Assembly: GCA_021775095.1 (NCBI GenBank)
Contig: JAJFII010000084.1
Location: 1-64,000 of the forward strand
Source of the DNA: Rhodospirillales bacterium
Lineage (GTDB): Bacteria > Pseudomonadota > Alphaproteobacteria > Rhodospirillales > Casp-alpha2
Reading direction: 5' to 3'
Length of the DNA: 64,000 nucleotides
Under the pieces are notes generated by a model. It had not been told where the DNA came from. It saw only the letters and a program-made list of their open reading frames with translations, and made no database searches. Positions within the stretch are counted from its first letter, which is position 1. Each line of letters opens with the position of its first letter. Made by a program: the position numbers and the translations under genes. Shown piece after piece: positions 1-16,509 of the stretch.

Positions 1-1
1 T

Positions 2-223
2 TGGCAAGGCGGCATCACCGGCACCGGCTATTGGGTTCTTGCGCGCGCGTATTTGCCAAAACGCCTGTTTGAGGGCAGGGGTTCCGTCAAAGATGTTCCC
101 TACGAAATCAGGGCTAAGAGCGATTCGCTGATAGCCTTCGAGCGCCGCATGGGTGGAGCAGTGCTTGGATTGGGCGTACTCGACCATTTGTCCGGTGGCC
201 AAATCGAGCGCGCGTTGAAATAA
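2..223 (+). CDS. hypothetical protein, C-terminal part
   Basis: An open frame runs from the left edge to a TAA at 221-223, giving the last 73 residues of a protein whose start lies outside the window. The residues are mixed: an aromatic, glycine-rich start (WQGGITGTGYW), a basic middle and a hydrophobic segment near the end (MGGAVLGLGVLDHL). It faces the recombinase cassette tail-to-tail, and its stop lies only 13 bases from the end of the next gene on the other strand. I do not recognise a family. It could be the last gene of the same mobile element or a host gene at its border. Confidence 0.45.
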   Translation, partial: WQGGITGTGYWVLARAYLPKRLFEGRGSVKDVPYEIRAKSDSLIAFERRMGGAVLGLGVLDHLSGGQIERALK

Positions 224-236
224 TAATTATTCCTTT

Positions 237-1781
237 TCAAGACCTATCCCGTGTTTCAATGCTCGCAAAATCAGGGGAACTTGAAGAGAGTTGGGCTTTT
301 TTCAATCGGGTAAAATACTGCCTCATCCTGCCGGATTCCCAATCTATGCCGTCATAGTATTTTCTGAATACCGTGTCTCCCATTAAGGCGTTAAACCAAG
401 GTTCTTCCTCACTCACTTTATTGGGGGGCGAGGCAAATGTCTTTCCCGAAAGGGATTCGATGATTTTCTGCCTTTGCACAAGGGTCATCACCCCAGTTCT
501 ATTCCAAGCATCATAATTGCCTGTTCCTCGCCCCATCAGGACTTTGAACACGGCCATATTTCGCGACTGTATTTCGTCCGACTCCATGAGCTTGGCGTAA
601 TCCTCGCCGTAATTTTTCTTGTTATAGATCATGAAGAGAAGTTTTTCCTGAAAGGAGAAAGTATCGATATCCAATCTCACATTAGAATTCGCCGGTTTAA
701 TGCGCTCAAAGGTGTCTTGCACCGCAGTGCTCAGTTTTGCGTCCAGTTTGGCAAAAGCTTCGGGTGATTTCGTCTTGAACTTTCCCCAACTCACGGCATC
801 CAGGGCAATCCTTCCTGGAATTCCGGTAATAAAGCTAACACCCGCATCCACAGCCAAAATCATGGACCGAACAGTTATGTAATCACCCCTCGCAAAGGTG
901 TTCGAGTCAGGTTTCATGTCCAATTCCCTTACGAAATCCCTTATAGCCCCCATGTCATACCAATCGGGAATGATAAGTCCCTCATGGCCCATATTTTCGC
1001 GAAGGTAGCGGGACATCACGGGGTTGAGGGAGGCTGGAATTGAGTCGAATGGAACTATGCTAAGTGCTGGATGAAGTGCAGTAGATTGACGAATGACATT
1101 GATGCCGGGAAAATTGGCTTCATTGTAGTCGTGGCTGGCATGGCTCAGCATGACGTCATCAATCATTCCCCGATCAATGACATCTTGGAATTTCAATACA
1201 TCGATCTTTGAGATATGAACAGCCTGATCTTCCGTTGCTTCCAGCGTGCTGGCATGACTTGCCTCTGCCGGGAAGTGCTGCCCTACAATTCGCACTCCCT
1301 CAAGACGCTGGAAAGAGGCAAGCCGCGACATGACAACCAGATCAAGTTCTTCCGAATTTATCCGGGGAAATCCTTTTCCAAGAAGATTTGTGCCGAGCTT
1401 TGCCAACGCTTCGGCTGAAAGGCCGTATCCTACTGTGGAGCCATCCGGACCCAAGCGGAAAAAGCGCGTTTCATCCAAGGGAGCCATGACGCTCGAAAAC
1501 GACTTGGGAAGCCTGTTTGCCCTTGCCGTGAGGTATTTCAGCAGGGCCACGTTTCCTGTCTTCAAGGCCGATTCCATTGTTTCCGGGGTTATCTCCAACT
1601 CACTTCCTGGCTTTAGAAATCCAATGTCAGCCTGAACCTCTTCGGAAAGCGAATGGAGGCTATCGGATACCTCCGCCCTTTCTGCATCCTTTTGTGCAAG
1701 AGCGACCTTAAGGTTTTCGAGGCCTCTTTTCTCTCTATCTTGATCTTCGTGTGTTTTTCCTGTTTCGAATGGTCTTCCCAT
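237..1781 (-). CDS. divergent GH3 (NagZ-like) domain protein, no signal peptide
   Basis: A 514-residue protein. Residues about 160-300 resemble the second half of the NagZ/GH3 catalytic barrel: a GQHFP motif at 167-171 where NagZ has GKHFPGHG, a Ser-His at 175-176 where NagZ carries its catalytic loop His, then the aspartate motif PDWYDM at 272-277 with D273 at the position of the GH3 nucleophile, preceded by PAS and a GHEGLII strand. The substrate-binding Lys of the KH pair is replaced by Gln (Q168), and the usual DQEGGR strand near residue 100 is not recognisable, so normal hydrolase activity is doubtful. There is no signal peptide; residues 10-50 look helical and charged, possibly coiled coil. 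It is the last gene of a minus-strand cassette behind a tyrosine recombinase, 56 bases after the preceding stop. The family call is by eye; a degenerate or repurposed sugar-binding protein is possible. Confidence 0.6.
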   Translation of the reverse strand: MGRPFETGKTHEDQDREKRGLENLKVALAQKDAERAEVSDSLHSLSEEVQADIGFLKPGSELEITPETMESALKTGNVALLKYLTARANRLPKSFSSVMAPLDETRFFRLGPDGSTVGYGLSAEALAKLGTNLLGKGFPRINSEELDLVVMSRLASFQRLEGVRIVGQHFPAEASHASTLEATEDQAVHISKIDVLKFQDVIDRGMIDDVMLSHASHDYNEANFPGINVIRQSTALHPALSIVPFDSIPASLNPVMSRYLRENMGHEGLIIPDWYDMGAIRDFVRELDMKPDSNTFARGDYITVRSMILAVDAGVSFITGIPGRIALDAVSWGKFKTKSPEAFAKLDAKLSTAVQDTFERIKPANSNVRLDIDTFSFQEKLLFMIYNKKNYGEDYAKLMESDEIQSRNMAVFKVLMGRGTGNYDAWNRTGVMTLVQRQKIIESLSGKTFASPPNKVSEEEPWFNALMGDTVFRKYYDGIDWESGRMRQYFTRLKKAQLSSSSPDFASIETRDRS

Positions 1782-1837
1782 TTAAATTGTTATTTTTACA
1801 TTTAATAGTTCCGCTTCATTCGTGCGTATGGTGATCA

Positions 1838-3259
1838 TTATGCAGATGGAGGAGCATGGAGGGAATTTCGCTCCGGAGATTTCTTTGTCAGATATTTCTG
1901 CAAGTCCTCGGCGGTGGCATCCCCAGTGAGATAGGTGGTTTGGGTGTAGTCGCCAAAGGCCTTCAGTGCGTTCGGTTCATCCAGTCCAAACTTCTTGACC
2001 ATCCGTTCGGTCGCCGCCTGATCGTTCTCCCACCCCGTGGCTTCGCCGTCTTCCGATAGCAGGCGCATCTGATATCGGATCAAACCTTTCTTTTCGCGTA
2101 CGTCGAAAATGTCGCCATCATACCCCTCGAGACCGCCGACCAGATAGGTGAGTTTCTGGCGGATTTCGGTGAGTTTTATCGGATCGAAGGCGTCGCTGCT
2201 GAGGATGCTGAAATCGATTTTGTAAACGCTCTCGACGAAGCCGGTTGCGCCGAATTCCTCGGTTCCTGTCCAGAAGCCCAAGGCTTCTGCAAGGAGGCCG
2301 ATGTCTTCGTCGCTCCAGCCGGTCACATCTTTTTTGATTGTAGAACTACCCGCATGGGCTTTCAGGATGATTTCGTCTCCGGTGACGGTGTGGGCCGTGA
2401 CGCCGGGCCGGATGGGGGCCGGGTGTTCTTCCGTATGGGCGGGTTCTGCCTCGCCCGTCTGCGGGTTCACTTGGGTCTTGGTTGCGGCTTCGCGCACGTC
2501 TGAGCCTGTGTCAATGGGTTGAGGGCGGTCCAAACCAAACTCCTGGGCAATGGCGTTTTGGGTTTCTTCTGATATGCCGGTGTCATAGCCGGATGAGGAA
2601 AATATCTCGAAACTGATGAAGGTCGCAGGGTCGGGGAGCGCCGCCAAGTTCTGCTCGTTCAATTTGCCCTCGATGAGGCGGCGGTCTTCCGCTGTACGGG
2701 CTAGGGCAATGATTTTGGATAAGGCTTGAAGTTTGCCCCTCTCACTCTCCGGCGTATCAGGATGCTCTGCCAGTTGTCGGATAATATCGGTGGTCGATTT
2801 TCCATCCTGGCGCAATTTTTCGACCAGGGAGACGTACTTGTTTCGGTTGGTTTCGGTGCTTTCCACTTCCTGCCTTGCCTCGACTTTCTCGGAATGACGA
2901 TCAAGGACACCGACAATAATCGCTACTGGCTTTTTCGTGATGTCATACTCAGGCTTCGTTTGCTGTTTTTTCTTTTCGTAGGCGCGAAGCGTATCGGTTA
3001 CCTGTTCCGGGAATTGGCCGTTGTCTTCATAGGGTTCCAGAAAGGCGCGGCTCGATGGGTCCACGTATAAGTCCATGAGAAAACCCGCAATCTCATTGCG
3101 ACGGCCTTCTTTTTCAATTTCCGTTTGTCTGATTTCGGCTTGCTGTTGCAGGGATTTATCATGCGAGGCTTCTATTGCCTCCATGGAATGCTTCGGGCGT
3201 TCCGCCGTCCGCTTCGGATGGTCTGGGGATTCAAAGGCGGAAGGCAGGATTTCGTTCAT
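1838..3259 (-). CDS. hypothetical protein, 473 aa, in recombinase cassette
   Basis: A soluble protein with no signal peptide or membrane segment that I can see. Residues about 20-60 are rich in Glu, Gln and Lys and likely helical. The middle (about 100-200) is charged and helical, a Pro/Thr/Glu-rich linker lies near 250-290, and the last 180 residues mix hydrophobic and acidic stretches (for example TGWSDEDIGLL). I do not recognise a family. The start is an ATG 9 bases after the stop of the upstream small gene, without a strong ribosome binding site, which suggests translational coupling. Neighbours on the same strand are the recombinase, a small exported protein and the GH3-like protein, so the four probably share one transcript. 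Confidence 0.6.
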   Translation of the reverse strand: MNEILPSAFESPDHPKRTAERPKHSMEAIEASHDKSLQQQAEIRQTEIEKEGRRNEIAGFLMDLYVDPSSRAFLEPYEDNGQFPEQVTDTLRAYEKKKQQTKPEYDITKKPVAIIVGVLDRHSEKVEARQEVESTETNRNKYVSLVEKLRQDGKSTTDIIRQLAEHPDTPESERGKLQALSKIIALARTAEDRRLIEGKLNEQNLAALPDPATFISFEIFSSSGYDTGISEETQNAIAQEFGLDRPQPIDTGSDVREAATKTQVNPQTGEAEPAHTEEHPAPIRPGVTAHTVTGDEIILKAHAGSSTIKKDVTGWSDEDIGLLAEALGFWTGTEEFGATGFVESVYKIDFSILSSDAFDPIKLTEIRQKLTYLVGGLEGYDGDIFDVREKKGLIRYQMRLLSEDGEATGWENDQAATERMVKKFGLDEPNALKAFGDYTQTTYLTGDATAEDLQKYLTKKSPERNSLHAPPSA

Positions 3260-3268
3260 TGATGGGAT

Positions 3269-3571
3269 TTATTTGAGGCCGAGGTCCTTTTTGGCCTCTG
3301 AGATCAAGCGGGCCGTAACCTCGGCCATATCGGCTTTGGCCTTCGCGGTTCGGAGTTTGAGGCGCATGATCTCATCGCAGTGAGCTTGCCCCTCCTCAAG
3401 AAACTCTTGGCGTTCATCATTATCTTTTAGTTGCTTAGCGACCTCGGTCTCTCTGGAAAGGCACTTGCTGTAGGTCTCGGTGATGAATTGGAGTTCGTCG
3501 GCCTCTTGGGCCAGCACATGATCGGAAAGGCTGGCGGCAAACACGACCAAGGATAATCCGAGTACTTTCAT
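3269..3571 (-). CDS. small exported helical protein, 100 aa
   Basis: The N terminus is a typical signal peptide: a short positive start, a hydrophobic core (LGLSLVVFAASL) and an Ala-type cleavage site after LA at about residue 21 (VLA-QEA). The remaining 80 residues are charged and probably one or two helices with a Cys near 37 and another near 64, which could form a disulphide in the periplasm. It starts 9 bases after the recombinase stop and ends 9 bases before the next gene, so it belongs to the cassette. No family is recognised. A small periplasmic partner of the downstream genes is possible but is only inferred from position. Confidence 0.6.
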   Translation of the reverse strand: MKVLGLSLVVFAASLSDHVLAQEADELQFITETYSKCLSRETEVAKQLKDNDERQEFLEEGQAHCDEIMRLKLRTAKAKADMAEVTARLISEAKKDLGLK

Positions 3572-3580
3572 ATTGTCCGC

Positions 3581-4312
3581 CTAACCGCTTTTTCTGTCAA
3601 AAAAATCGACGAGGCGGGAAACCGTCTTGGTGGCAATGCGGTCGATATCCTGCTCACTAAGCCGATTTAATTTTCTGGCGGACTTGTTCGGTGACGCCGC
3701 GAACAAATCATTCCGCCGGGCATCCTCCTGTGCCTGAGCTAAGGTGACGCCCAAATAAACCAGCGTGGTCTGCGTGTCCTTGTGACCAAGCAGCTTGGCG
3801 ATGCGCTCAACGGGGACGCCGCAACGGTAAAGGTGGATAGGTTTTGTGCGGCGGAGAGAATGGGAGCTGTATGGACTTGCATTCAAGCCGATAGCCTCGA
3901 CCCAGGATTTGACTAATCCGCGATAGACGCTTGTTGAAATGGCTCCGGCGGTCGCAGCCTTGTGGCCAGTGAAGAGAAAATCATCCGGCCCTTTGCGGCT
4001 GTCCTTAATCCATTCGAGGGCTGCCTGTTTGGACGTGGGGGTCAGCGCGGGGAAGACACCAAGCTTGGTTTTGCTTTGCTGCCAGCCGAAGGTATCGGAA
4101 ACCGCATTCTGTGGGTCTTCAATATCCGAGACACGCAAGGCTAAAAGGTCTTTTGCGCGGAGCATGGTGTCGATGCCGAGGGTAAACAGACAAAGCTCTT
4201 GGCGTCGATGTTCGGTGAATAGATAAGTAGCGATGACGCGGACTTGATCGGGCTCGAAGGCCTTACGCTGGCCAACGGCGCGGGCCTTGTTCCAGGGTTT
4301 AGTGGTGTTCAT
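3581..4312 (-). CDS. single-domain tyrosine recombinase/integrase
   Basis: A 243-residue DNA strand-exchange enzyme of the lambda integrase superfamily. The catalytic set is visible: Arg52 in GIDTMLRAKDLLAL, a likely beta-strand Lys at 81 or 83, the HxxR box H151-R154, His177 in LLGHKDTQTT and the nucleophile Tyr186. Only about 20 residues precede the catalytic domain, so the usual N-terminal core-binding domain is missing, as in FimB/FimE-type invertases and small cassette integrases. A C-terminal tail of about 50 residues follows the Tyr. It is the first gene of a four-gene minus-strand cassette. Directly upstream (4358-4505) are two quasi-palindromic sequences that could be its sites or its operators. 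Confidence 0.88.
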   Translation of the reverse strand: MNTTKPWNKARAVGQRKAFEPDQVRVIATYLFTEHRRQELCLFTLGIDTMLRAKDLLALRVSDIEDPQNAVSDTFGWQQSKTKLGVFPALTPTSKQAALEWIKDSRKGPDDFLFTGHKAATAGAISTSVYRGLVKSWVEAIGLNASPYSSHSLRRTKPIHLYRCGVPVERIAKLLGHKDTQTTLVYLGVTLAQAQEDARRNDLFAASPNKSARKLNRLSEQDIDRIATKTVSRLVDFFDRKSG

Positions 4313-4357
4313 GGGAATGGGAGGAAAGAGAGAAAAAAAGGAAAAATCGGCCCGCCC

Positions 4358-4505
4358 ATCGCTTCTTAGAAAAGCGATAGTACTTTATGGGGATTAGGCC
4401 TTATTTCATGGGCATGAGGTTATTTGGACTATGCTATGTAGCTTATCAGAAACTGAAATTAACATTAAGAAACCGCCCTTCGCGCCTATCGCTTTTCTAA
4501 AAAGC
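4358..4505. repeat. pair of quasi-palindromes forming a 15-bp inverted repeat
   Basis: The 15 bases at 4366-4380 (TTAGAAAAGCGATAG) occur as an exact reverse complement at 4486-4500. Each copy is itself nearly palindromic. At 4358-4378 a 7-bp stem (ATCGCTT/AAGCGAT) encloses a 7-base loop, and at 4491-4505 a 6-bp stem (GCTTTT/AAAAGC) encloses 3 bases. Both lie between the divergently oriented recombinase gene and the small gene at 4540. They may be recombination core sites, operators for a dimeric repressor or short terminators; sequence alone does not decide. The A+T-rich segment between them could hold promoters. Confidence 0.6.
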
Positions 4506-4539
4506 AAAGCTATATTGAGCATTCCTTAACCAAATCATT

Positions 4540-4731
4540 ATGTTGATTAATAATAATCAAGCCCAATTTCTTGAAGACAATTACGCCGCAATTCACCGAT
4601 GGGTTCACTACAACGATGTTCATCGTCTCATCTATCAGCAATTAGAGCCAGAAACGCCTCTGTATTCACAGGCCATTTCGTTTGGGCAGTTTACCGAACT
4701 TGATACCATGCTCGATGACAGGTGGTTTTGA
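4540..4731 (+). CDS. small hypothetical protein, 63 aa
   Basis: A short open frame that begins with ATG in an A+T-rich stretch and ends with TGA. The product is acidic and rich in Asn, Gln and aromatic residues (LEDNYAAIHRWVHYNDVHRLIY), probably helical, with no signal peptide and no membrane span. There is no clear ribosome binding site. It reads away from the recombinase, across the palindrome pair, which is where small regulators of mobile elements often sit, but it has no recognisable DNA-binding motif. It could be a chance frame. Confidence 0.35.
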   Translation: MLINNNQAQFLEDNYAAIHRWVHYNDVHRLIYQQLEPETPLYSQAISFGQFTELDTMLDDRWF

Positions 4732-5255
4732 AGGCTAAAATTTCGGAAAAGTAGCTCACATTGTAGCTTGAATCATTACCGGAAAACCCCTATTTATCTG
4801 CGTACTTTCCACCTATTGCGTTGATAAGTAAGAGATGGCGGAATATAAACTTGTTTGTGGATAGGAAGACCTCACGACCTCTCCTGGGCACCAAACCTCA
4901 GTCAACGGACCGAGGTCTCCGGCTAACGCAGTGAATCCAATTAGGAGCGGTTCCAATTAAGGACGACTGGCTTTGGCGGACGGTAGAGATTTTCTTCAAT
5001 TAGATAATGCCGAACAGCATCAAATCTATCTTGCTGTTGTATGTGGGCAGGAATAGGCAACGGTCATATAAGTCGAGGACTCTTTTACACTAGAATCGCG
5101 TTCTTTTTCGATATAATCAGGAAAAATGGCATGCGCTTGTTGTGTTTTCAACATTTTATAATGCCGCCTTGCCCTTTCGATAACAAATTGAATTGACCGG
5201 TTTATGTACCCTGTAGTTTGTCCGGTTTTAAGATTTCTCTAAAAGGGGGGATTTG
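4732..5255. other. non-coding stretch with hairpin and IS-like leader
   Basis: No supported gene is seen. The stretch holds one copy of an imperfect 36-bp repeat (4864-4899) overlapping a hairpin at 4895-4916 (ACCTC and GTC pair with GAC and GAGGT around AACG). From about 5195 a stretch containing TTTGTCCGGTTTTAAG resembles the leader upstream of a known type of IS transposase start, consistent with the remnant that follows. The rest shows nothing recognisable. Confidence 0.5.
4864..4899 (+). repeat. imperfect 36-bp direct repeat, left copy
   Basis: This stretch matches 6634-6669 at 28 of 36 positions without gaps, sharing the core GACCTCTCCT and the block CACCA. The two copies bracket the IS remnant, the toxin-antitoxin remnant and the broken serine recombinase. 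The arrangement is that expected of old attachment sites, but the mismatches mean it could also be diverged duplicated sequence. The CACCA end recalls tRNA 3' ends, yet no T-arm sequence precedes it. Confidence 0.45.
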
Positions 5256-5321
5256 ATGAAGCGGACAGAACTGTTGCAAGGGATACGGACATATCACTTG
5301 ATTACTGACAATAACCAATAG
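5256..5321 (+). pseudogene. transposase N-terminal remnant
   Basis: A strong ribosome binding site (AAAGGGGGGA) precedes an ATG followed by MKRTELLQGIRTYH. This resembles the start of a widespread IS transposase group whose proteins begin MKRxELLQEIRKMRFEE, and the leader resembles theirs as well. The frame stops after 21 codons at TAG 5319-5321 and the similarity is lost after about residue 11, so only the start of the element remains. The family assignment is from memory of the motif and is tentative. Confidence 0.4.
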
Positions 5322-5361
5322 GAAATTTGCCGAAATCCTCAATCAACGTTATAAGACCCCT

Positions 5362-5583
5362 ATGACAATACTTCTTGAACAAGCCATCGAAAAAGTCCGC
5401 CTTCTGTCTGAAAACCGACAGGATGAAGCAGCGGAAATATTGCTTAGCGTTGTTGCTCAAACGGATGCCGACGCCCCCCATTTGAGCGATCAGCAAATCG
5501 AAGAAGTCCGCCGCCGTCAAGCTGACCGCACCTATGCCAGCGATGAGGAAACGACAGCCTTCTTTACCTCCGCTGGCGCATGA
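5362..5583 (+). CDS. type II antitoxin, ParE/RelE-partner type
   Basis: A 73-residue acidic protein of the small-antitoxin kind that begins with LLEQAIEKV and carries QDEAAEILL, a helical dimer segment, then a C-terminal toxin-binding tail (EEVRRRQADRTYASDEETTAFF). The stop overlaps the start of the following toxin frame by four bases (ATGA), the usual coupling in toxin-antitoxin operons. The toxin is interrupted by a stop codon, so this antitoxin may be an orphan that could still neutralise related toxins elsewhere in the genome. No promoter was confidently identified upstream. Confidence 0.75.
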   Translation: MTILLEQAIEKVRLLSENRQDEAAEILLSVVAQTDADAPHLSDQQIEEVRRRQADRTYASDEETTAFFTSAGA

Positions 5584-5915
5584 AACTTGTTTTCCGTCGG
5601 GCGGCGCGAACCGATTTTCAAAACATTTACGACTATATTCGGCAAGACAATCCACAAGACAATCAAAAGGTTGCGACAGCAGTCGTTAAACATATCCGCT
5701 CGTCTTTGAACCGCCTGCGACAATTTCCCCGTTCCGGGCGTGTCGGGTCGGTGCCGGGAACGGACGAATAGGTCATCCATGGTCTCCCTTATGTCGCCGT
5801 ATACGAAATCACACCGGATCAAATCGATATCATTGCGATATTTCATACGGCGCAAAACCGGCCTGAGCTGAATTTGATAAACGCCCAGGTCAATACGCCG
5901 AAAAATCGAAAATAG
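5580..5915 (+). pseudogene. ParE-family toxin with internal stop
   Basis: The frame encodes a ParE/RelE-fold toxin (MKLVFRRAARTDFQNIYDYI, then RLRQFPRSGRVGSVPGTDE) but meets TAG at 5769-5771. Past it the same frame continues with a normal toxin C terminus (VIHGLPYVAVYEI to FHTAQNRPE) to a stop at 5913-5915. In intact relatives the residue at the stop is usually Leu (for example PGTRELV), so one base change from TTG to TAG explains it. The truncated 63-residue product would lack the last strands and is probably inactive. ParE toxins act on DNA gyrase and RelE toxins on ribosome-bound mRNA; which applied here cannot be read from the sequence. Confidence 0.8.
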
Positions 5916-5977
5916 GGATAACAATCGGACATCATATCGGTTTTCCATGCGGGATGGTTGCCAACCGCCGATTACGG

Positions 5978-6336
5978 ATGTCTTTCTTCTTCCTCAGAAA
6001 ATCCACCGATGAAGCGGAAGAGCGCCAAACACGCTCCATTGACGACCAACGTCACGATTGTTTGAACCTGACAATCGTTGATGAGTTTGTTGGGGCAAAA
6101 GGCGCCAGCCGCCCGAACAATCGCCCGATCTTCAAATCCGTGCTGTAGGAATTGTTTTACAAAGACTCGAAGCGATGACGGGCGGACAGTATTTTGACCT
6201 GTACTCCGACCGTTTGTCCCGTAATGGCGTGGAAGCCGGGCAGGTAATTCAGATGATCATGACCGTCTTTTTGCCGCAATCAAAACAGGAACCGGGCGCA
6301 ATGTGGCCTGGCGCGGCGCAAAGCAACGAAGCATAA
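5978..6336 (+). pseudogene. serine recombinase (resolvase/invertase) fragment, frameshifted
   Basis: The first frame gives FFFLRKSTDEAEERQTRSIDDQ, the N-terminal signature of large serine recombinases: an RKST catalytic region followed by a conserved RQxxSIxDQ. It stops at 6146-6148. A second frame (codons starting at 6175) resumes with QYFDLYSDRLSRNGVEAGQ, the conserved DRLSRN helix, and stops at 6334-6336. The original gene has therefore lost bases between about 6130 and 6175 and all of its C-terminal DNA-binding domain. The remains mark a decayed mobile element. Confidence 0.75.
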
Positions 6337-6710
6337 AATCAATTCGAAGCATTCCACCAGAATTGACAACCCTTCGACAGTTGGAAACCGGGCTGATCAA
6401 GGGACCATAAAAAATCTGGCTCCGTGCAACCATGCCAAGAACCCGATGAGCACTCCCTTCATTTTTGCAGAAATTGCAACCTTGGGCAGGCATAGTACGG
6501 CTTGCAAAGAATTATCAATAATCGCTTGGTTTGTCGTTATACCCGGTACGGGCATGGCGCTTGTCTGCGCAGACTTTTTAATCTATCTCATTGATAAAGA
6601 TACAATGATGGAGTTATTAGTGATATGTACACGGGAAAACCTTGTGACCTCTCCTCGACACCATATCTCCCTGTCTCGTAGCATTAAAAAAACGGTAAGG
6701 GGGGAGTTTT
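6337..6710. other. intergenic remnant without clear genes
   Basis: I see no supported gene here. Short frames on both strands lack family resemblance and ribosome binding sites. The stretch contains the right copy of the 36-bp imperfect repeat (6634-6669) and ends with the strong ribosome binding site AAGGGGGGAG of the RNase D gene. Confidence 0.5.
6634..6669 (+). repeat. imperfect 36-bp direct repeat, right copy
   Basis: This is the right-hand partner of 4864-4899 (28 of 36 identical). It lies 41 bases upstream of the start of the RNase D gene, at the boundary where intact core genes begin, which fits the right end of an old insertion. Confidence 0.45.
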
Positions 6711-7349
6711 ATGAAATTTGTAGCACGAAAAAAACCAACGGCCATTGAATTACACCAGGGCGACCTGCCGGCCGGATTGAGCTTTGGCGCAAGCGTTGCC
6801 GTTGATACGGAAACCCAGGGTCTGAACCCCAACAGGGATCGCCTCTGTGTCGCCCAGCTGTCTTCCGGTGATGGGGTTTGCCATCTGGTTCAATTTGCCG
6901 CCGGCAGGTATCAGGCACCCAACCTGACGGCCCTGATGGCCGATCCGGGGGTAACGAAAATCTTCCATTTTGCGCGCTTTGATGTGGTGATCCTGAAAAA
7001 ATTCTTAGGCGTTGAGATCAAACCCGTCTATTGCACAAAAATTGCCTCCAGACTGGTTCGAACCTACACGGACTATCACGGTCTTAAACATGTCACCCGA
7101 GAACTCCTGGGGATCGAGCTGTCGAAGGAACAACAATCATCGGACTGGGCGGCGAATAAGTTGTCGGGCGATCAATTAAAATATGCGGCGATGGATGTGG
7201 TCAACCTGCACGCTCTCAAGGAACGCCTGGATATTATGTTGGTCCGGGAAAGCCGAATGGAATTGGCGCAATCGTGTTTTGATTTTTTAAATGTCCGCGG
7301 TGAACTCGATACCGGCGGCTGGGGCGACGTCGACATCTTTGCCCATTAA
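6711..7349 (+). CDS. rnd: ribonuclease D (exonuclease domain only)
   Basis: A 3'-to-5' exoribonuclease of the DEDDy family, acting on tRNA precursors and other RNAs in the cytoplasm. The acidic residues are all present: D32 and E34 in VDTETQ, D91 in HFARFD, and the YxxxD pair Y158-D162 in KYAAMD. At 212 residues it consists of the exonuclease domain alone and lacks the HRDC domains of E. coli RNase D, which is the usual short form in alphaproteobacteria. The start follows a strong site (AAGGGGGGAG, 4 to 5 bases before ATG). The gene stands alone, downstream of the decayed mobile region and upstream of the lipopolysaccharide genes. Confidence 0.9.
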   Translation: MKFVARKKPTAIELHQGDLPAGLSFGASVAVDTETQGLNPNRDRLCVAQLSSGDGVCHLVQFAAGRYQAPNLTALMADPGVTKIFHFARFDVVILKKFLGVEIKPVYCTKIASRLVRTYTDYHGLKHVTRELLGIELSKEQQSSDWAANKLSGDQLKYAAMDVVNLHALKERLDIMLVRESRMELAQSCFDFLNVRGELDTGGWGDVDIFAH

Positions 7350-7502
7350 CCACCGGCGCGCCCGGAAAATTCATGTATCGCCAGGGTTAAGCTCATGCCA
7401 ATGCCGCTAAGGGCCCGGTTTCATTGACCTGTTGCGGCGTCGGGCGCATACTCACTCAGACATCACAACGACCAATAATATCGACAGGGATTATTTCTTA
7501 TA

Positions 7503-8504
7503 ATGACAACCAATGCCGCAGTGGACCTGTCATCGGCGATCGATTTGACGGACAACGATGATTTAACATCGGCGCGTAAAGTCCTGGCCATTGAAGCCCA
7601 GGCGCTGACCGATTTAGCCGCCAGTCTGGCAGCAGAATTTGTCGAAGCTCTGGATATTATTTCGGCGATCGGCGGTCGGGTTGTGATTTCGGGCATGGGC
7701 AAGAGTGGCCATGTGGGCAATAAGATCGCGGCGACATTGGCTTCCACCGGGACGCCCAGTTTTTTTGTTCATCCCGGTGAAGCGTCGCACGGTGATTTGG
7801 GAATGATCACCAAAGAGGACGCGGTTTTGGCCCTGTCAAACTCCGGCGAGACGACGGAGCTTGCCGATTTGGTCGCCTATTGCAAAAGATTTGAAATCCC
7901 CCTGATCGGCATGACGTCGCGCCGTGGCAGTACCTTGCATGCGGCGTCGACGCTATCGCTGATTTTGCCCGATGCGCCGGAAGCCTGTCCGCTCGGATTG
8001 GCCCCGACCACGTCAACAACCCTGATGCTGAGTTTGGGCGACGCCCTGGCCGTCGCCCTGTTGGAGCGCCGGAATTTTTCGCCGACGGATTTTCAAACCT
8101 TTCATCCCGGCGGAAAACTAGGGCTTAAACTTTTAAAAGTCCGGGATCTCATGCATTCCGGTGACCAGTTGCCGACGGCACCGGGTATCATCGACATGGC
8201 CGAGGCCCTGTTGGTGATTACCGAAAAACGATTTGGGTGTCTGGCGGTTGTTGATCAACACGGTGCCGTCGAAGGGGTTATCACCGACGGCGACATCCGA
8301 CGCCATATGGGGCCCGACTTTTTATCACTTCAGGCCAAAGACGTTATGACCGCAGGGGCACAAACGGTTGGCCCCGATACCCTGGCCAGTGAAGTGGTCG
8401 CCCTCATGAACGCCAAATCAATAACCAATATATTTGTCGTCGACGCGGGCCGGGTGGTTGGTATCGTGCATATCCATGATTGCCTGCGGGCCGGCGTGGT
8501 ATAA
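7503..8504 (+). CDS. kdsD: arabinose-5-phosphate isomerase, KpsF/GutQ family
   Basis: Interconverts ribulose 5-phosphate and arabinose 5-phosphate, the first step of Kdo synthesis for lipopolysaccharide. The 333 residues show a SIS sugar-isomerase domain (about 35-190) with the loop SGMGKSGHVGNKIAATLASTG and the SNSGET phosphate-binding motif, followed by two CBS domains (about 205-330; RFGCLAVVD, VEGVITDGDIRRH, SITNIFVVD). It starts the row kdsD-lptC-lptA-lptB-rpoN, which ties Kdo synthesis to lipopolysaccharide export. Its stop is 14 bases before the chosen lptC start. Confidence 0.93.
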   Translation: MTTNAAVDLSSAIDLTDNDDLTSARKVLAIEAQALTDLAASLAAEFVEALDIISAIGGRVVISGMGKSGHVGNKIAATLASTGTPSFFVHPGEASHGDLGMITKEDAVLALSNSGETTELADLVAYCKRFEIPLIGMTSRRGSTLHAASTLSLILPDAPEACPLGLAPTTSTTLMLSLGDALAVALLERRNFSPTDFQTFHPGGKLGLKLLKVRDLMHSGDQLPTAPGIIDMAEALLVITEKRFGCLAVVDQHGAVEGVITDGDIRRHMGPDFLSLQAKDVMTAGAQTVGPDTLASEVVALMNAKSITNIFVVDAGRVVGIVHIHDCLRAGVV

Positions 8505-8518
8505 CGGGAATGGCTGTG

Positions 8519-9223
8519 ATGAATTCCCTGTCTACTGATTTCCAAACCAACGCAGGTGGCCGCGGCGCGGCCCGTAAGATTCGCACCTCGCGTCTGCCGC
8601 GCCGCTTCTCGCAAACCTATAGCCGCTTTGTTTCCATGATGAAGTTTGTGCTGCCGGTGACGGCCCTGGTTTTGATTTCACTGGTTGTCCTGTGGCCGCA
8701 CCTGGCCGCCGATGACCTGCGGTTCCGGATTGGTTTTGCCGCCATTAAGGCCAGCGTCTCAAAAGATCCCAGTATGGTAAACCCGCGTTTTGTCGGTACC
8801 GATTCGGAAAACAAACCCTACTCGATCACCGCCGATCTGGCACGCAGCCTGGGTGATCTTAAATCGAAAGACGACGCGGCATCGATTGAGCTGGAAATGC
8901 CAAAGGCGGACATTACCCTGGACGATGGAACCTGGTTGGTGCTGACGGCGGAAACCGGAACATTGGCCCATCAGGAAAAGGCCTTGAACCTGGAGGGGGC
9001 GGTTAATCTGTTTCACGATTCGGGATACGAATTCCGGACGGAAAAAGCCGCTATTGATCTGGCGACGGGCATTGCAACGGGCAATCTACCGATCCAGGGG
9101 CAGGGGCCTTTTGGCATCCTTAAAGCCCAGGGTTTTAAGCTGGTAGACAAGGGAAAAACCATCTATTTCAGTGGTAAATCAAAGTTGATTTTGCACCCTG
9201 GAGCCGGACAAACAGTAAAATGA
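8519..9223 (+). CDS. lptC: LPS export protein LptC
   Basis: A bitopic inner-membrane protein that passes lipopolysaccharide from the LptB2FG transporter to LptA. About 40 mostly basic N-terminal residues precede one membrane span (FVLPVTALVLISLVVLWP), after which the chain is periplasmic and beta-rich with the OstA-like fold (for example GTDSENKPYSITADLA). I chose the ATG at 8519 because GGGA at 8506-8509 is well placed for it. An ATG at 8510 would add three residues, and a longer frame reaches back into kdsD. The stop overlaps the lptA start by four bases (ATGA), indicating coupling. Confidence 0.85.
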   Translation: MNSLSTDFQTNAGGRGAARKIRTSRLPRRFSQTYSRFVSMMKFVLPVTALVLISLVVLWPHLAADDLRFRIGFAAIKASVSKDPSMVNPRFVGTDSENKPYSITADLARSLGDLKSKDDAASIELEMPKADITLDDGTWLVLTAETGTLAHQEKALNLEGAVNLFHDSGYEFRTEKAAIDLATGIATGNLPIQGQGPFGILKAQGFKLVDKGKTIYFSGKSKLILHPGAGQTVK

Positions 9224-10026
9224 TAAGGTTTTGGCCGATCCTCGTTGGGGCGTCTTTGATCACCCTGGCTGTCGCCCAGGTCAGGGCGCAAAGCCTCAAC
9301 TTCGGTACCGGTGACGCGCCCATCGAAATTGACGCTGACAATGGCATTGAATGGCAACAAGACAGCCTGGTTTTTGTCGCGCGGGGCAATGCGCGGGCGG
9401 TGCGCGGCGACGTTCGGGTGCTGGCCGACGAATTGCGGGCCTATTATCGAAAGTCAAGTAACGGGGCGACGGATATATGGCGTCTTGATGCCATTGGCTC
9501 CGTGCGAATCAAGTCGGCCGAAGGCACGGCATTTGGCGACAAGGCGCTTTACGACGTGGACAATTCCGTCCTCACGATCACCGGCGAAAACCTGAAACTG
9601 GTATCCGGCGAGGATTGGCTGACGGCGCGGGATCAACTGGAGTTTTGGGAAACCAAACAGATGGCCGTCGCCCGCGGTAACGCCGCAGCCATGCGCGAGA
9701 ATAAAAAATTGAATGCCAATGTTCTGGCGGCCTATTTCAGGAAAGACAAAAAAGGCGAAACGGGCATTTATCGGGTAGATGCCTTCGAAGATGTGAAAAT
9801 TACCACTGATAAAGATCAGGCAACTTCAGAGCGCGGTGTTTATAATGTGGAAAGTGGTATCGCGACGCTGAGCGGATCGGTTAAAATTAGGCGCGGCGAT
9901 AACGTGTTGAACGGATGCAGTGCCGAGGTTAACTTGAACACCGGTGTTTCCAAGTTGCACAGTTGCCCATCGGGCATTTCACGTGCCGAGGGTCGTTTCC
10001 AGCCCGTCAAAAAAAAGTCTAAGTGA
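9220..10026 (+). CDS. lptA: LPS transport periplasmic protein LptA (OstA family)
   Basis: Forms the periplasmic bridge that carries lipopolysaccharide to the outer membrane. The N terminus is a signal peptide ending at about QVRAQS (residue 24). Two OstA-type beta-jellyroll halves follow (about 30-130 and 140-250), each with the family pattern of IEIDADNGIEW and ARGNARAVRGDV, then VARGNAAAMRENKKLNANVLAAYF. At 268 residues it is longer than E. coli LptA (185), as is common in alphaproteobacteria. It overlaps lptC by four bases and lies 77 bases before lptB. Confidence 0.88.
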   Translation: MIRFWPILVGASLITLAVAQVRAQSLNFGTGDAPIEIDADNGIEWQQDSLVFVARGNARAVRGDVRVLADELRAYYRKSSNGATDIWRLDAIGSVRIKSAEGTAFGDKALYDVDNSVLTITGENLKLVSGEDWLTARDQLEFWETKQMAVARGNAAAMRENKKLNANVLAAYFRKDKKGETGIYRVDAFEDVKITTDKDQATSERGVYNVESGIATLSGSVKIRRGDNVLNGCSAEVNLNTGVSKLHSCPSGISRAEGRFQPVKKKSK

Positions 10027-10103
10027 ATAGAATATTAAGGGATGATAAGTCCCGCAGATTAGAGAAGTAAATCGCTAATGCAGGCGAAGTTTGGGGAGCA
10101 AAA

Positions 10104-10880
10104 ATGAACGATAACCCGGCGTCTCAGACGAAAAGCGGGCCCGAGCTGGTCGCCGATAATCGGGGCCTGGTGGTGAACAACATCGGCAAACGATTTAAAA
10201 AACGGCCGGTTGTTCGCGGCGTGAGTTTGGAATTGCAACGCGGTGAAGTGGTTGGCCTGTTGGGGCCCAATGGTGCCGGAAAAACCACCTGTTTTTACAT
10301 GATAACCGGATTAATACCGCCCGATCAGGGGTCAATTGTCCTCGATGGCAACGACATTTCGGATTTGCCCATGTATCGCCGTGCCCGCCTTGGGATCGGC
10401 TACCTGCCACAGGAAGCGTCAATTTTCAGGGGCCTTTCTGTTGAGGCGAATATACGGGCGGTGCTTGAAGTCGTGGAAAAATCGCGGGAACGCCGCGAAG
10501 CCATTTTAGACGCTTTGTTGGCTGAATTCTCCATTACTCATTTGCGCCGCACGCCGGCACTTGCCTTATCGGGCGGTGAACGGCGGCGCGTCGAAATCGC
10601 GCGGTCGCTGGCTTCCAACCCGCATTTTGTCCTTTTGGATGAACCGTTTGCCGGTATCGATCCAATCGCCGTCGGTGATATTCGGGATTTGGTTGCCCAT
10701 TTGAAAGACCGCGGAATCGGTGTTTTGATCACGGATCACAATGTCCGCGAAACCTTGGATGTAATTGACCGGGCCTACATCATTCACGACGGAATGATGC
10801 TCATGGAGGGGGCGCCAAACGACATCGTCGGGAACGAAGATGTAAGGCGTGTTTATTTGGGTGATCGGTTTAGTCTTTAA
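10104..10880 (+). CDS. lptB: LPS export ABC transporter ATPase LptB
   Basis: The cytoplasmic ATPase that powers lipopolysaccharide extraction together with LptF and LptG, which are not in this window. Walker A is GPNGAGKTT at 54-62, the signature is LSGGERRRVEIARS, and Walker B is VLLDEPFAGIDP, followed by the switch His in ITDHNVRET. The first 20 residues are a non-conserved extension. A ribosome binding site (TTTGGGGAGC) precedes the ATG. It is followed 21 bases later by rpoN, the usual order in proteobacteria. Confidence 0.94.
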   Translation: MNDNPASQTKSGPELVADNRGLVVNNIGKRFKKRPVVRGVSLELQRGEVVGLLGPNGAGKTTCFYMITGLIPPDQGSIVLDGNDISDLPMYRRARLGIGYLPQEASIFRGLSVEANIRAVLEVVEKSRERREAILDALLAEFSITHLRRTPALALSGGERRRVEIARSLASNPHFVLLDEPFAGIDPIAVGDIRDLVAHLKDRGIGVLITDHNVRETLDVIDRAYIIHDGMMLMEGAPNDIVGNEDVRRVYLGDRFSL

Positions 10881-10901
10881 TCTCAAAATTCGAGCGATCT
10901 G

Positions 10902-12428
10902 ATGGTGTTGAGCCCGCGCCTCGACCAGCGCCAATCACAGTCGCTCGTGATGACGCCGCAATTGCAGCAGGCGATCAAACTTCTGCAAATGTCAAATATC
11001 GAGCTCAGCGAATTCGTCGAGACGGAATTGGAACAAAACCCAATGCTCGAACGCGACGAAGGCGACCGACGGGATGACCGCATCGATGGAGACGACGACC
11101 CGCCGAGCGAAGACAGCGCAGCGACGGAAACTGCGGCGCTCGAGGATATCGACTTTTCCACCGCTGAACCGGCCGAAATTCCCGAATCCAAGGCCCTGGA
11201 TGCGGAGTTGGACAATACCTATACCAATGACAGCGGCAGTGACGTTGATGGGCCGGCCTTTGACGCCGGCCCCTACAAGGAAACCGGTGGCGGCGGCGGC
11301 TTCGATGGCTTGCCGCCGGACCTGGAACAGACGCTCTCGGAGCAGACCTCCCTGCGTGACCACCTGATGGCGCAAATCGGCATGGAAATCGAACATCCCG
11401 TCGACCGCATCATCGGCAGCCATTTGATCGATTTGCTCGACGATGCGGGTTATCTGCGTGGTGAACTGAGCGATGTTTCGGAGATTCTGGGGTGTGATGT
11501 TGCACGGGTTGAAGCGACTCTGAAGGTCATGCAGCGGTTGGATCCGCCGGGAATTTTTGCACGCGATCTCAAACAGTGTCTGAGGTTGCAGCTTGAAGAT
11601 CTGAACCGCTACGATCCCTGCATGCAGGCGTTGCTTGATAATCTCGAGATTCTGGCCAGCCGAAACCTGTCGGAGCTGGCAAGGATTTGCCAGGTCGATG
11701 CCGATGACCTGGCAGAAATGATACAGGAGGTGAAGGCGCTTAACCCGAAACCGGCGACCGCCTTTGACCATACGGTCAGTCAGCCGATAACACCTGATGT
11801 GTTGATGCGGGCCAAACCCGGCGGCGGCTGGTTGATCGAACTGAATTCCGAAACCTTGCCGCGGGTTCTCATCAATAATCACTACCACTCGGAAATCCTC
11901 GGAAAAACCAAGGATCGCCAGGACAAATCCTATATTACGGAACAGTTTCAATCGGCCAACTGGCTGGTCAAATCCTTGCACCAAAGGGCGACAACAATTC
12001 TCAAAGTGGCAACGGAACTGGTCGCGCAACAGGATATGTTCTTCCGCCTGGGCGTTCAGCATCTTAAACCGCTGGTGCTGCGTGATATTGCCGAAGTTAT
12101 CGAGATGCATGAGAGCACGGTCAGCCGGGTGACGTCCAACAAATATATGGCAACACCACGGGGTATTTTTGAATTAAAGTATTTTTTCACATCGTCAATT
12201 GGCTCGACGCACGGTGGTGACGCCCACTCGGCCGAAGCCGTTCGGTATCGAATCAAAGCCCTGATTGACGGCGAACTGCCTAAAAAGATTCTTTCAGACG
12301 ATAAACTGGTTGTGCTTTTGAAATCCGAAGGAATGGATATCGCTCGCCGGACCGTTGCAAAATATCGCGAATCCATGCGGATTCCCTCGTCCGTACAGCG
12401 GCGACGCGACAAAGCGGCTCCTAGGTGA
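10902..12428 (+). CDS. rpoN: RNA polymerase sigma-54 factor
   Basis: The alternative sigma factor for promoters activated by enhancer-binding AAA+ proteins. The 508 residues contain region I (QSLVMTPQLQQAIKLLQMSNIEL, with ELEQNPML), an acidic low-complexity region II (about 45-130), the core-binding domain, the helix-turn-helix (LRDIAEVIEMHESTVSRVTSNK) and the RpoN box near the C terminus (ARRTVAKYRESMRIPSS). The ATG at 10902 has only a weak ribosome binding site. Its place between lptB and hpf-ptsN is conserved across proteobacteria. No sigma-54 promoter was confidently seen in the window. Confidence 0.96.
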   Translation: MVLSPRLDQRQSQSLVMTPQLQQAIKLLQMSNIELSEFVETELEQNPMLERDEGDRRDDRIDGDDDPPSEDSAATETAALEDIDFSTAEPAEIPESKALDAELDNTYTNDSGSDVDGPAFDAGPYKETGGGGGFDGLPPDLEQTLSEQTSLRDHLMAQIGMEIEHPVDRIIGSHLIDLLDDAGYLRGELSDVSEILGCDVARVEATLKVMQRLDPPGIFARDLKQCLRLQLEDLNRYDPCMQALLDNLEILASRNLSELARICQVDADDLAEMIQEVKALNPKPATAFDHTVSQPITPDVLMRAKPGGGWLIELNSETLPRVLINNHYHSEILGKTKDRQDKSYITEQFQSANWLVKSLHQRATTILKVATELVAQQDMFFRLGVQHLKPLVLRDIAEVIEMHESTVSRVTSNKYMATPRGIFELKYFFTSSIGSTHGGDAHSAEAVRYRIKALIDGELPKKILSDDKLVVLLKSEGMDIARRTVAKYRESMRIPSSVQRRRDKAAPR

Positions 12429-12473
12429 TTTTTTTTATTTTTGCAAGGTAGAAAATGTAAAAAAACCGGTGTA

Positions 12474-12508
12474 TTGACAATAGTGAGGCTGGGTTCTAGT
12501 TTCCCGGC
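12474..12508 (+). promoter_or_regulatory. possible sigma-70 promoter upstream of hpf
   Basis: A perfect -35 box TTGACA lies at 12474-12479. After 17 bases comes TAGTTT, a weak -10 match (three of six). It sits about 140 bases upstream of the hpf start, in a 219-base gap with no gene, and could give hpf-ptsN a promoter independent of rpoN. Confidence 0.35.
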
Positions 12509-12647
12509 CTTCCTGACAAAAAACGGCGCAACTCAATTTGTTTCGCCAAATTCGCAGTCAGGGTCGTGAAGCAGCCAATGGGCTCAGGGTTTTCAATCCG
12601 CCAAAGATTGGAAATTCGATGACGTAGAGACGGGACCGCGCGTATTT

Positions 12648-13223
12648 ATGGAAATATCCGTTAAAGGCAAAAATATGGATGTGGGTGATGCTTTAAGCAG
12701 CCACGTTCAGGACCAGTTAACACCAGCTGTTAATAAATATTTTAACCAGGCGATTGACGCGAGCGTGACCTTTTCACGTGAAGCGCACCAGTTGCGTGCC
12801 GATATCTCGGTGCACCCTGGCCCTCGCGGTCTGTTAATTCAGAGCAAAAGTGAAGGGGTCGATGCCTATGGGGCCTTTGAAGGGGCCCTGGAGCGCATCG
12901 CCAAGCAGCTGCGTCGCTATAAACGGCGCTTGTCTGACCACCACAAGGGATTGACGGCGGCTGACGAATATTTGCAGGCACAGCAGTACGTGATTGAACC
13001 CGAGCAGGAAGATTCGGATATTGAGCCCGAGGGTCAGCCAACGATTGTTGCCGAAATGCAAACCCATATTGCAACGCTTACAGTCAGTGAAGCGGTCATG
13101 CGGATGGACCTGGCGGATGCCCCTGTTGTGATGTTCCGAAACAGTGCAAATGGCGGTTTGAACGTTGTTTACAAACGCAATGACGGAAACATAGGCTGGA
13201 TTGATCCGTCAAACATTAAATAG
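12648..13223 (+). CDS. hpf: long-form ribosome hibernation promoting factor
   Basis: Binds the 30S decoding site and promotes 100S dimers when growth stops. The N-terminal domain (about 1-105) has the beta-alpha fold (MEISVKGKNMDVGDALSSHV, a basic AKQLRRYKRRLSDHH). After a linker, the C-terminal dimerisation domain (about 135-191; TVSEAVMRMDLADAPVVMFRNS, VYKRNDGNIGWIDP) identifies the long form. The length of 191 is normal. It is followed 42 bases later by ptsN, and a TTGACA-type promoter may lie upstream. Confidence 0.92.
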   Translation: MEISVKGKNMDVGDALSSHVQDQLTPAVNKYFNQAIDASVTFSREAHQLRADISVHPGPRGLLIQSKSEGVDAYGAFEGALERIAKQLRRYKRRLSDHHKGLTAADEYLQAQQYVIEPEQEDSDIEPEGQPTIVAEMQTHIATLTVSEAVMRMDLADAPVVMFRNSANGGLNVVYKRNDGNIGWIDPSNIK

Positions 13224-13265
13224 AGGTATGGCGATAATCCATACCTGAGATGTTAGGGAAATTCT

Positions 13266-13730
13266 ATGGAGATCAATGATCTTGTATCGACAAGTGGTGT
13301 TGTTTCGAACCTGAAGGTGTCGAGCAAAAAACAAGCGATACAGGAGTTGGCGCGCCGCGTCGCCGAGATTTCCGGGCAGCCGGAACGGGCTGTTTTTGAC
13401 GTTTTGATGGAGCGTGAGCGCCTCGGAACCACCGGTGTCGGCAATGGCATTGCGATCCCCCATGGTAAACTGGAAAACCTCGACAGTTTATATGGTTTAT
13501 TCGCACGGCTTGAAACACCTGTTGATTTTCAGGCCATCGACGACCAACCCGTCGATTTGATCTTTTTGCTTCTGGCACCGGAATCTGCGGGTGCCGATCA
13601 TTTAAAAGCCTTGGCCCGGGTATCGCGTTTGTTGCGCGACAAACCCACCTGTAAAAAACTCAGGGGGACAAATACCGTAGACGGCCTTTATGCGATCCTG
13701 ACGGAGAGCATGGAAAGCCGGGCCGCCTAG
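13266..13730 (+). CDS. ptsN: PTS IIA-like nitrogen regulatory protein PtsN
   Basis: EIIA-Ntr, the final phosphate acceptor of the nitrogen PTS, which regulates potassium and carbon/nitrogen functions rather than moving sugar. The domain fills the 154 residues. The phosphorylated His is in NGIAIPHGKL at about residue 66, preceded by the conserved ERERLGTTGVG. The other members of this PTS (EI-Ntr, NPr) are not in the window. It forms the usual rpoN-hpf-ptsN row. A run of 21-bp repeats follows the stop. Confidence 0.94.
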   Translation: MEINDLVSTSGVVSNLKVSSKKQAIQELARRVAEISGQPERAVFDVLMERERLGTTGVGNGIAIPHGKLENLDSLYGLFARLETPVDFQAIDDQPVDLIFLLLAPESAGADHLKALARVSRLLRDKPTCKKLRGTNTVDGLYAILTESMESRAA

Positions 13731-13790
13731 GCAACTGACACTTCGCTGCGCCGGGTTGGGCGCCGCGCGACAGGGCAGGCCCTGTTTTGC

Positions 13791-13862
13791 AACGAAAGAT
13801 CCCTTTCACGCGACGAAAGATCCCTGTCTCGCGACGAAAGATCCCTGTCTCGCGACAAAAAG
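13791..13862. repeat. 21-bp tandem repeat, about four copies
   Basis: The unit CGAAAGATCCCTGTCTCGCGA repeats with a period of exactly 21 bases, starting at 13793, 13814, 13835 and 13856. The first copy differs slightly and the last is degenerate. CGCGA and TCGCG boundaries let neighbouring units form short stems. It fills the gap between the convergent genes ptsN and the DUF1150 gene. The period is a multiple of three and would read RKIPVSR in one frame, but nothing suggests that the frame is translated. Confidence 0.8.
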
Positions 13863-13903
13863 TCAGAGTCAAAGCGCCTCATAACCCGGCCCTACCGGCG
13901 GCG

Positions 13904-14134
13904 TCAATGCACGTAGACGGGCAACAATTCGTTTTGCATAACCAGGACCTGTGCCGCATCCCGACTGGCGACAAACGCCAAGTGGCGTCCGTCTGCAGCG
14001 TAGATGGCATAACCATTGATCCCGCCGTCCGTTTCCGGTTTGACATAGGCGAATGCCCCGGAACCCCATTCCGCAAAAGCCTGCTGCGACATGGGCAATT
14101 GTTTTCTTGGCGATTGAATTTCTGATTTTTCCAT
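13904..14134 (-). CDS. DUF1150 family protein
   Basis: A 76-residue small protein found mainly in alphaproteobacteria, of unknown function. The family pattern is visible: a helix followed by GSGAFAYVKP, then YAIYAADGRHLAFVASRDAAQVLVMQNELLPVYVH. It lies downstream of the hsp20 gene on the same strand, an arrangement seen in many alphaproteobacteria, which suggests shared heat or stress control. An AGAAAGGTG-like site lies 5' of the start. Its role next to the chaperone has not been established, to my knowledge. Confidence 0.85.
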   Translation of the reverse strand: MEKSEIQSPRKQLPMSQQAFAEWGSGAFAYVKPETDGGINGYAIYAADGRHLAFVASRDAAQVLVMQNELLPVYVH

Positions 14135-14205
14135 ATCTGAACACCTTTCTGTAGGGTCCCCCGGTAACGGGCAGACCCTTATGCTGGTTTCACGGTTGTT
14201 ATCGT

Positions 14206-14664: not shown

Positions 14665-14762
14665 TACGCGTGCTCCTCCTCAGTTTGAGCGAGTACGAAT
14701 TGCGGGCCCACACGATTGGCACCCAAAACAGGCCTTCCCATCAAAAGCCTCTTTTCATGGCT

Positions 14763-16498: not shown

Positions 16499-16509
16499 AG
16501 ATAGCGGGC

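Follow-up and report, generated by a model that had tools for sequence, protein, structure and literature searches.

Site-specific recombination between two sites that lie inverted on one molecule turns round the segment between them. In the promoter switches of the Escherichia coli FimB/FimE, HyxS and IpuA type, the recombinase gene adjoins short inverted repeats of 7, 9 and 16 bp, and the ipuS segment measures 260 bp, according to the part of the source used here (PMC6083910); the excerpt on fimS gives a segment of 314 bp (PMC9993118). In the sections cited for Clostridioides difficile, inverted repeats surround a segment upstream of an operon with flipping expression in the cmr switch (PMC8844915), and the flagellar switch, upstream of the flgB operon, is inverted by RecV (PMC7446863). 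Here we describe a candidate switch of this general kind in a stretch of 64,000 nucleotides of a Rhodospirillales bacterium (assembly GCA_021775095.1, contig JAJFII010000084.1), referred to below as the window, which starts with the very first base of C96, a contig of 98,995 bp in a 5.9-Mb host genome of 113 contigs. Four open reading frames (ORFs) on the minus strand run from a tyrosine recombinase through a 100-residue and a 473-residue protein to a protein resembling glycoside hydrolases of family 3 (GH3), separated by 9, 9 and 56 bp, an order and spacing that the ORF coordinates bear out as given in the first-pass annotation of this DNA. The explanation that we favour, held as a whole with moderate confidence, is that a genomic island carries these genes as cargo at one of its ends, that a pair of inverted repeats beside the recombinase gene forms an inversion switch, and that the GH3-like gene was gained separately and encodes an eroded NagZ-type protein. 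The features on which this explanation rests are the following:

237 to 1781, minus strand: 514-residue GH3-like protein (ORF, PF00933 match and alignments; GC content at third codon positions, GC3, of 0.51)
1838 to 3259, minus strand: 473-residue protein without detectable relatives (ORF and homologue searches)
3269 to 3571, minus strand: small protein of 100 residues with a signal-peptide-like N-terminus, judged by eye (ORF; two weak Pfam matches below the cut-off)
3581 to 4312, minus strand: 243-residue tyrosine recombinase, catalytic domain from residue 19 onward (ORF, Pfam and alignment)
4361 to 4380, plus strand: inverted-repeat arm 1, proximal, GCTTCTTAGAAAAGCGATAG (repeat search)
4381 to 4485, no strand: candidate invertible segment, the 105 bp between the arms (repeat search)
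4486 to 4505, minus strand: inverted-repeat arm 2, distal, 19/20 identical to arm 1 (repeat search)

The two arms are not mentioned in the first-pass annotation. The proximal one lies 48 bp from the start codon of the recombinase and overlaps a near-palindrome (ATCGCTT-7 nt-AAGCGAT, 4358 to 4378). Among 400 dinucleotide shuffles of the 450-bp upstream region none reached an inverted match of 19/20, the best being 18/20, attained once. When the site pattern was searched with up to three mismatches across the 5.9-Mb genome, both arms were recovered at 0 mismatches and one further site, on contig C42, at 3. As a control, the window was searched for other inverted pairs at gaps of 30 to 300 bp, and one more at 19/20 was present; over the same gaps, positions 1 to 17000 of a second host contig, C54, held no pair at 18/20 or better. 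The other pair in the window (43402 to 43710) corresponds to the facing ends of two convergent paralogues, GMC-oxidoreductase-like as assigned by eye. Since the two sites are inverted and both lie on one side of the recombinase gene, inversion is the predicted outcome of recombination between them, and not excision. The layout is that of the FimB type, with inverted sites around a short segment that adjoins a recombinase gene, and the recombinase is likewise FimB-like in build, comprising scarcely more than a catalytic domain. Acting on these private sites, it would invert the 105-bp segment upstream of its own gene and of the genes for the exported and the 473-residue proteins, and inversion would switch this operon on or off. 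By resemblance to invertible promoters of the FimB type, the segment would contain the promoter.

Several observations weigh against such a switch. A scan of 4381 to 4485 on either strand with a sigma-70-like consensus gave no promoter at 9/12 or better, and the single assembly shows the segment in one orientation only. If the recombinase were transcribed only by way of the segment, a flip would shut off the recombinase gene itself. Comparison with 20 other loci of the recombinase family, taking 450 bp upstream of each (144 in L080), gave a pair of similar length in one of them, L038 (19 nt, 89%, gap 137), where it overlaps an annotated gene. Shorter pairs were present upstream in L036 and L085 (13 nt) and downstream in L080, L034 and L087 (13-17 nt), with none in the remaining loci, and this scarcity indicates that the inverted pair is not a family trait. 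A second copy of the locus was looked for in addition and not found. A promoter candidate at 3572 to 3600 (10/12) was rejected, as its transcription start would fall within the next gene. The most elaborate form of the proposal is a self-latching memory switch, in which the promoter of the recombinase operon sits inside the very segment that is inverted, so that one flip silences the recombinase together with its cargo (the exported and the 473-residue proteins) and turns transcription to the other side, all within a defence-like island and beside a pseudo-NagZ that binds muropeptides and does not cut them; this we consider very improbable.

The recombinase matches the Pfam family Phage_integrase (PF00589, E 8.4e-20) with no recognisable extra domain, in keeping with the single-domain enzyme of the first-pass annotation, and it carries a PWN motif and all the catalytic residues (R, K, H-x-x-R, H and Y). 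Eleven NCBIfam models, nearly all of tyrosine recombinases, were hit below their cut-offs, and integrase families of PHROGs matched as well. We refer to its relatives as the PWNKGK family, our own name, after the N-terminal motif. Members are 200-251 residues long in 18 of the 20 other loci (263 in L039 and 43 in L086). All the catalytic positions (R, K, HxxR, H and Y) are preserved in the window protein and likewise in 18 of the 20 other loci; the two that depart are L086, represented by a 43-residue fragment only, and L011, with a match that stops at residue 163. In a class-wide sample of 240 genomes, nine, the host included, match at E of 1e-20 or lower; 922 plasmid records match at 1e-5, distant matches included, and 343 cover at least 80% of the query. 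A pattern scan of viral contigs for the recombinase gave no match. No stated function for the family was met in the literature, in which no search was aimed solely at that point. The neighbours of the members vary and include chaperone genes, RNA-repair genes, urea transport, a WGR gene and transposases. Of the 20 other loci, the two closest in sequence are L080 (41.6% identity) and L039 (39%); in each, the recombinase gene is followed on its own strand, after 95 and 36 bp respectively, by a gene for a different membrane-anchored or exported protein, as judged by eye. With the window this makes three cases, which give a hint of recombinase-led gene runs in this branch.

Two further observations concern the surroundings of family members. 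Similar GC-rich hairpins, terminator-like, stand directly after the recombinase stop codon in L005, L007, L009 and L085, and in L006 and L008 similar palindromes (ATGTC-GCTTT...AAAGC-GACAT) precede the PWNK codons by 118 and 128 bp. The palindromes are possible recombination or operator sites. As family-wide recombination sites they were rejected, being present in just these two of the nine sequences, out of 20, with a recognised PWN motif (window included).

The resemblance of the 514-residue protein to GH3 enzymes holds across several comparisons. It matches PF00933 (Glyco_hydro_3) with E 2.7e-7 and 30.8 bits (cut-off 27) over residues 161-285, corresponding to profile positions 160-263 of 316, which is the second half of the GH3 barrel. 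Two custom GH3 profiles, built from 6 and 21 proteins, gave 27.0 and 19.6 bits, against 5.1 and 5.3 bits for the best of 1000 shuffled copies, and profile-profile comparison with the same sets gave probabilities of 95.7% and 89.1%. Three weak PDB matches (E 0.21-1.8) are all beta-N-acetylglucosaminidase or GH3 entries. The protein would comprise an N-terminal helical stretch, from a low-confidence model, an eroded GH3 barrel within about residues 75-335, and a C-terminal extension of some 175 residues without family matches, and about 22-24 extra residues fall within 222-248 when it is set against NagZ/GH3 enzymes. AlphaFold2 returned a mean predicted local distance difference test (pLDDT) score of 36.6 for the protein alone and 35.1 with three GH3 proteins from viral contigs added, too low for a usable model.

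In GH3 enzymes of the NagZ type, catalysis depends on an aspartate nucleophile, the KH motif and an Asp-His dyad. Alignment with nine GH3 proteins shows that the invariant H169, P171, R261, G268, D273, M277 and G314 are kept; the nucleophile, Asp273, stands in an invariant column, with Pro in place of the S/T that precedes it in (S/T)DD. The motif KH(F/I)PGHG reads QHFPAEA, with Q168 for the lysine and the histidine at 169. At the dyad position, none of the four alignments has an Asp and three of the four have no His; the nine-protein alignment places S178 and L180 there, and the alignment to the 6-protein profile agrees. Two points tell against a complete loss of this machinery, each from one of the four alignments: one puts E181, a glutamate, at the dyad Asp and T183 at the His, and one could keep the catalytic His as H176. 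The DQEGGR motif is not recognisable; as one alignment places residues 77-93 opposite it, the strand may be eroded rather than missing. Elsewhere in the host, a separate NagZ-like gene (C113:4221-5048, 175 bits) has DQEGGR, KHIPGHG, DSH and SDD all present. We conclude that the 514-residue protein is most likely an eroded NagZ-type barrel without ordinary N-acetylglucosaminidase activity, and that cleavage of muropeptides is a less likely role for it than binding or an altered activity. The first-pass annotation had described a signal-less GH3-like protein with QH for KH, and had called for an alignment with NagZ. The alignment, once run, confirmed the substitution and added the loss of the dyad Asp, and inspection by eye likewise revealed no signal peptide. 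Its absent DQEGGR strand stands as far as the motif goes and must be softened with regard to the strand. Of its suggestion of binding rather than hydrolysis, the motif losses make the loss of ordinary catalysis likely; binding itself we infer.

Relatives of this protein are few. Among 289 genomes of the class it matched, besides itself, one GH3-like stretch of 89 residues. Twenty-three plasmid records of Lactobacillus/Lacticaseibacillus match, with all 20 of those listed annotated as GH3, and one phage record matches at E 0.7. The 473-residue protein has no Pfam match; searches of 149 further genomes close to the host and of 316 others of its order (overlapping sets) brought up no relative, and plasmids and phages gave no match. 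Pattern scans, in which close relatives alone are detectable, gave no match for it in viral contigs and GTDB contigs, nor any for the 514-residue protein. Homologue searches with the 100-residue protein gave none. No NCBIfam model was hit by the 514-, 473- or 100-residue protein, these three matched only weak families of unknown function in PHROGs, and the PADLOC defence-protein models matched none of the four proteins. Joint travel of the four genes thus finds no support, and strictly it is neither shown nor refuted, because nothing related to the 473-residue protein was detected. From its GC3 of 0.51, against 0.62-0.64 in the other three, the GH3-like gene was probably a separate acquisition. 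Counting against this step, GC3 spans 0.40 to 0.69 over nine island genes of C54, which makes the GC3 difference weak evidence for a separate origin. Inspection by eye led us to reject a split gene of which the GH3-like gene would be the second half; the 473-residue frame has no Pfam match. No clear ribosome-binding site was seen by eye before the recombinase or the GH3-like gene.

Beyond the inverted pair, the window carries the features that place the four genes in the chromosome:

4540 to 4731, plus strand: 63-residue divergent ORF past the two arms (perhaps not a gene; plasmid search without a match)
4864 to 4935, plus strand: island junction, a repeat of the 3' end of tRNA-Leu(CAG) (alignment score 77)
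5323 to 6263, plus strand: decayed remnant of an antitoxin-ParE-serine recombinase set (67% identity with its counterpart on C54)
6711 to 7349, plus strand: RNase D-like chromosomal gene, flank of the insertion (Pfam and relatives)

Sequence comparison places the four genes at one end of a genomic island with its insertion point in tRNA-Leu(CAG), between an NDUFA9-like epimerase gene (named by eye) and the RNase D-like gene. The 72-bp repeat at 4864 to 4935 takes in the tRNA's final 28 nt, runs on for about 42 nt past its end, and scores 77 against a maximum of 30 among 2000 random pieces of the window. A second remnant of the tRNA end near 6650 to 6668 was tried as the far junction and rejected, its score of 22 lying within the chance range (best of 2000, 30). 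Nucleotide homology between the host and its nearest relatives breaks off at about 6700 and is present from there into the chromosomal flank, which from 6711 holds the RNase D-like gene followed by kdsD, lptC, lptA, lptB and rpoN (the last five named by eye). The RNase D-like gene is present in 21 of 21 relatives, in seven of which the upstream stretch was read. Five of these (G002, G006, G007, G009 and G010) have an empty site, with the epimerase gene, tRNA-Leu(CAG) and the RNase D-like gene adjoining, and in the other two, G001 and G003, the contig breaks at the insertion site. In the host, the epimerase gene (C54:14372-15367) and the intact tRNA-Leu(CAG) (C54:14051-14137) are on the separate contig C54. 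Because of the empty sites in relatives, C54 and C96 would be neighbours in the host genome, with an intervening gap of any size; that this join is an indirect one weighs against the island as we draw it. Next to the tRNA on C54, on the side expected to face C96, is a gene for a 430-residue integrase (DUF6538 and Phage_integrase), and to judge by its place this enzyme is the most likely agent of island movement. Insertion at a tRNA 3' end, a direct repeat, an adjoining integrase and an empty site in relatives are thus all found, by way of the inferred contig join. The break at the same tRNA in G001, where one contig ends in the full tRNA-Leu and the other in a perfect 23-nt tRNA end, suggests that the site is an insertion hot spot in the genus.

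Inward from the integrase, C54 encodes an HNH-like protein, CHAT-TPR, a kinase, PP2C, VWA, a 362-residue protein, ParE, a 592-residue serine recombinase and a HATPase, the gene of which runs past the contig end. With its TerY-P-like set (VWA, PP2C and kinase), CHAT-TPR, ParE, large serine recombinase and HATPase, the stretch from 1 to 14050 looks like a defence island, and the HNH-like protein matches defence-effector models. A truncated ParE toxin gene and a serine recombinase remnant, siblings of the C54 set, occupy 5362 to 6170 of the window, with a ParE frame of 63 residues against 91 on C54. From this likeness, 5323 to 6263 is the remains of a related element beyond the island junction.

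The first-pass annotation had read the locus as a single recombinase-led cassette: on that view the recombinase would mobilise the exported, the 473-residue and the GH3-like genes together, and the last would encode a protein that could sense or alter muropeptides. The first three genes do share a strand at tight spacing, and in L080 and L039, too, the recombinase is followed by a same-strand gene for a membrane-anchored or exported protein (by eye), but everything searched yielded no homologue of the 473-residue protein and only generic GH3 matches for the 514-residue one, the GC3 of the GH3-like gene differs, the relatives of the recombinase keep varied company, and island mobility is already explained by the other integrase and the tRNA site. 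The two recombinase sites, inverted and one-sided, point to inversion and not to excision; neither the same genes together elsewhere nor sites on both sides were found, both close copies of the site being on one side. We regard the single travelling cassette as improbable. The neighbourhood search proposed for it never found the four genes side by side elsewhere, a result that is trivial because two of them lack homologues beyond the generic GH3 matches. The literature searched held no published account of this gene order, which is no proof of absence.

A possibility that we take more seriously, and still think doubtful, is that the genes are chance neighbours at a decaying island end, the recombinase being a passenger, the repeats its regulatory or binding sites, and the other genes unrelated orphans. 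The varied genes adjoining PWNKGK members would fit this, as would the decayed antitoxin, ParE and serine recombinase remnants on the window side, the unclear ribosome-binding sites before the recombinase and the GH3-like gene (by eye), and the lack of a strong promoter in the 105-bp segment. It has to contend with an intact recombinase frame and intact catalytic residues, with an inverted pair far beyond chance, and with three genes at 9-bp gaps and of matching GC3. For the GH3-like protein alone, one may also think of an active glycosidase of an unusual GH3 branch with another acid/base residue, for which H176 offers a possible candidate in one alignment and to which the conserved Asp273, Arg261 and second barrel half would be suited; given the Gln for K168, the want of a dyad Asp in all four alignments and the unrecognisable DQEGGR, we judge it unlikely. 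The explanation that we favour therefore remains island-end cargo with an inversion switch and a separately gained, eroded NagZ-type protein. If the segment inverts, the island would carry a phase switch of which the recombinase is the first gene under control, and the locus offers a concrete candidate substrate for the large PWNKGK recombinase family. In a genome that also has a motif-complete NagZ, the eroded protein would be a candidate muropeptide-binding protein.

Set beside described systems, the 514-residue protein shares with NagZ and other GH3 beta-N-acetylglucosaminidases the second barrel half, the Asp nucleophile and an LRE...G motif; unlike NagZ, it has lost the KH lysine, the dyad aspartate and DQEGGR, and it has an N-terminal helical stretch, a C-terminal extension of about 175 residues and about 22-24 inserted residues. 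TerY-P is a triad of VWA, PP2C and zinc-ribbon kinase linked to restriction systems, in the portion of the source cited (PMC11090510). The C54 part of the island has VWA, PP2C and kinase genes as well; unlike TerY-P, its VWA gene is divergent from the PP2C and kinase genes, and a scan of ten proteins in 14 kb of C54 recognised none of the McrBC/CoCoNuT type. Like the C. difficile switches, as far as the cited sections describe them, the locus has inverted repeats around a segment upstream of a gene run; unlike the flagellar switch, it has its recombinase gene directly beside the segment. With the NCBIfam invertase model PRK09870 the window recombinase scores only 12.3 bits against a cut-off of 221. 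Unlike the FimB-type switches, within what the excerpts cited above report, the arms are 20 bp long (against 7, 9 and 16), the segment is 105 bp (against 260 and 314), and the recombinase is the first gene downstream of the segment, the inversion here being a candidate known from sequence. What the locus has in common with FimB/FimE, HyxS and IpuA, on the same excerpts, is a tyrosine recombinase gene beside an inverted-repeat pair around a short segment.

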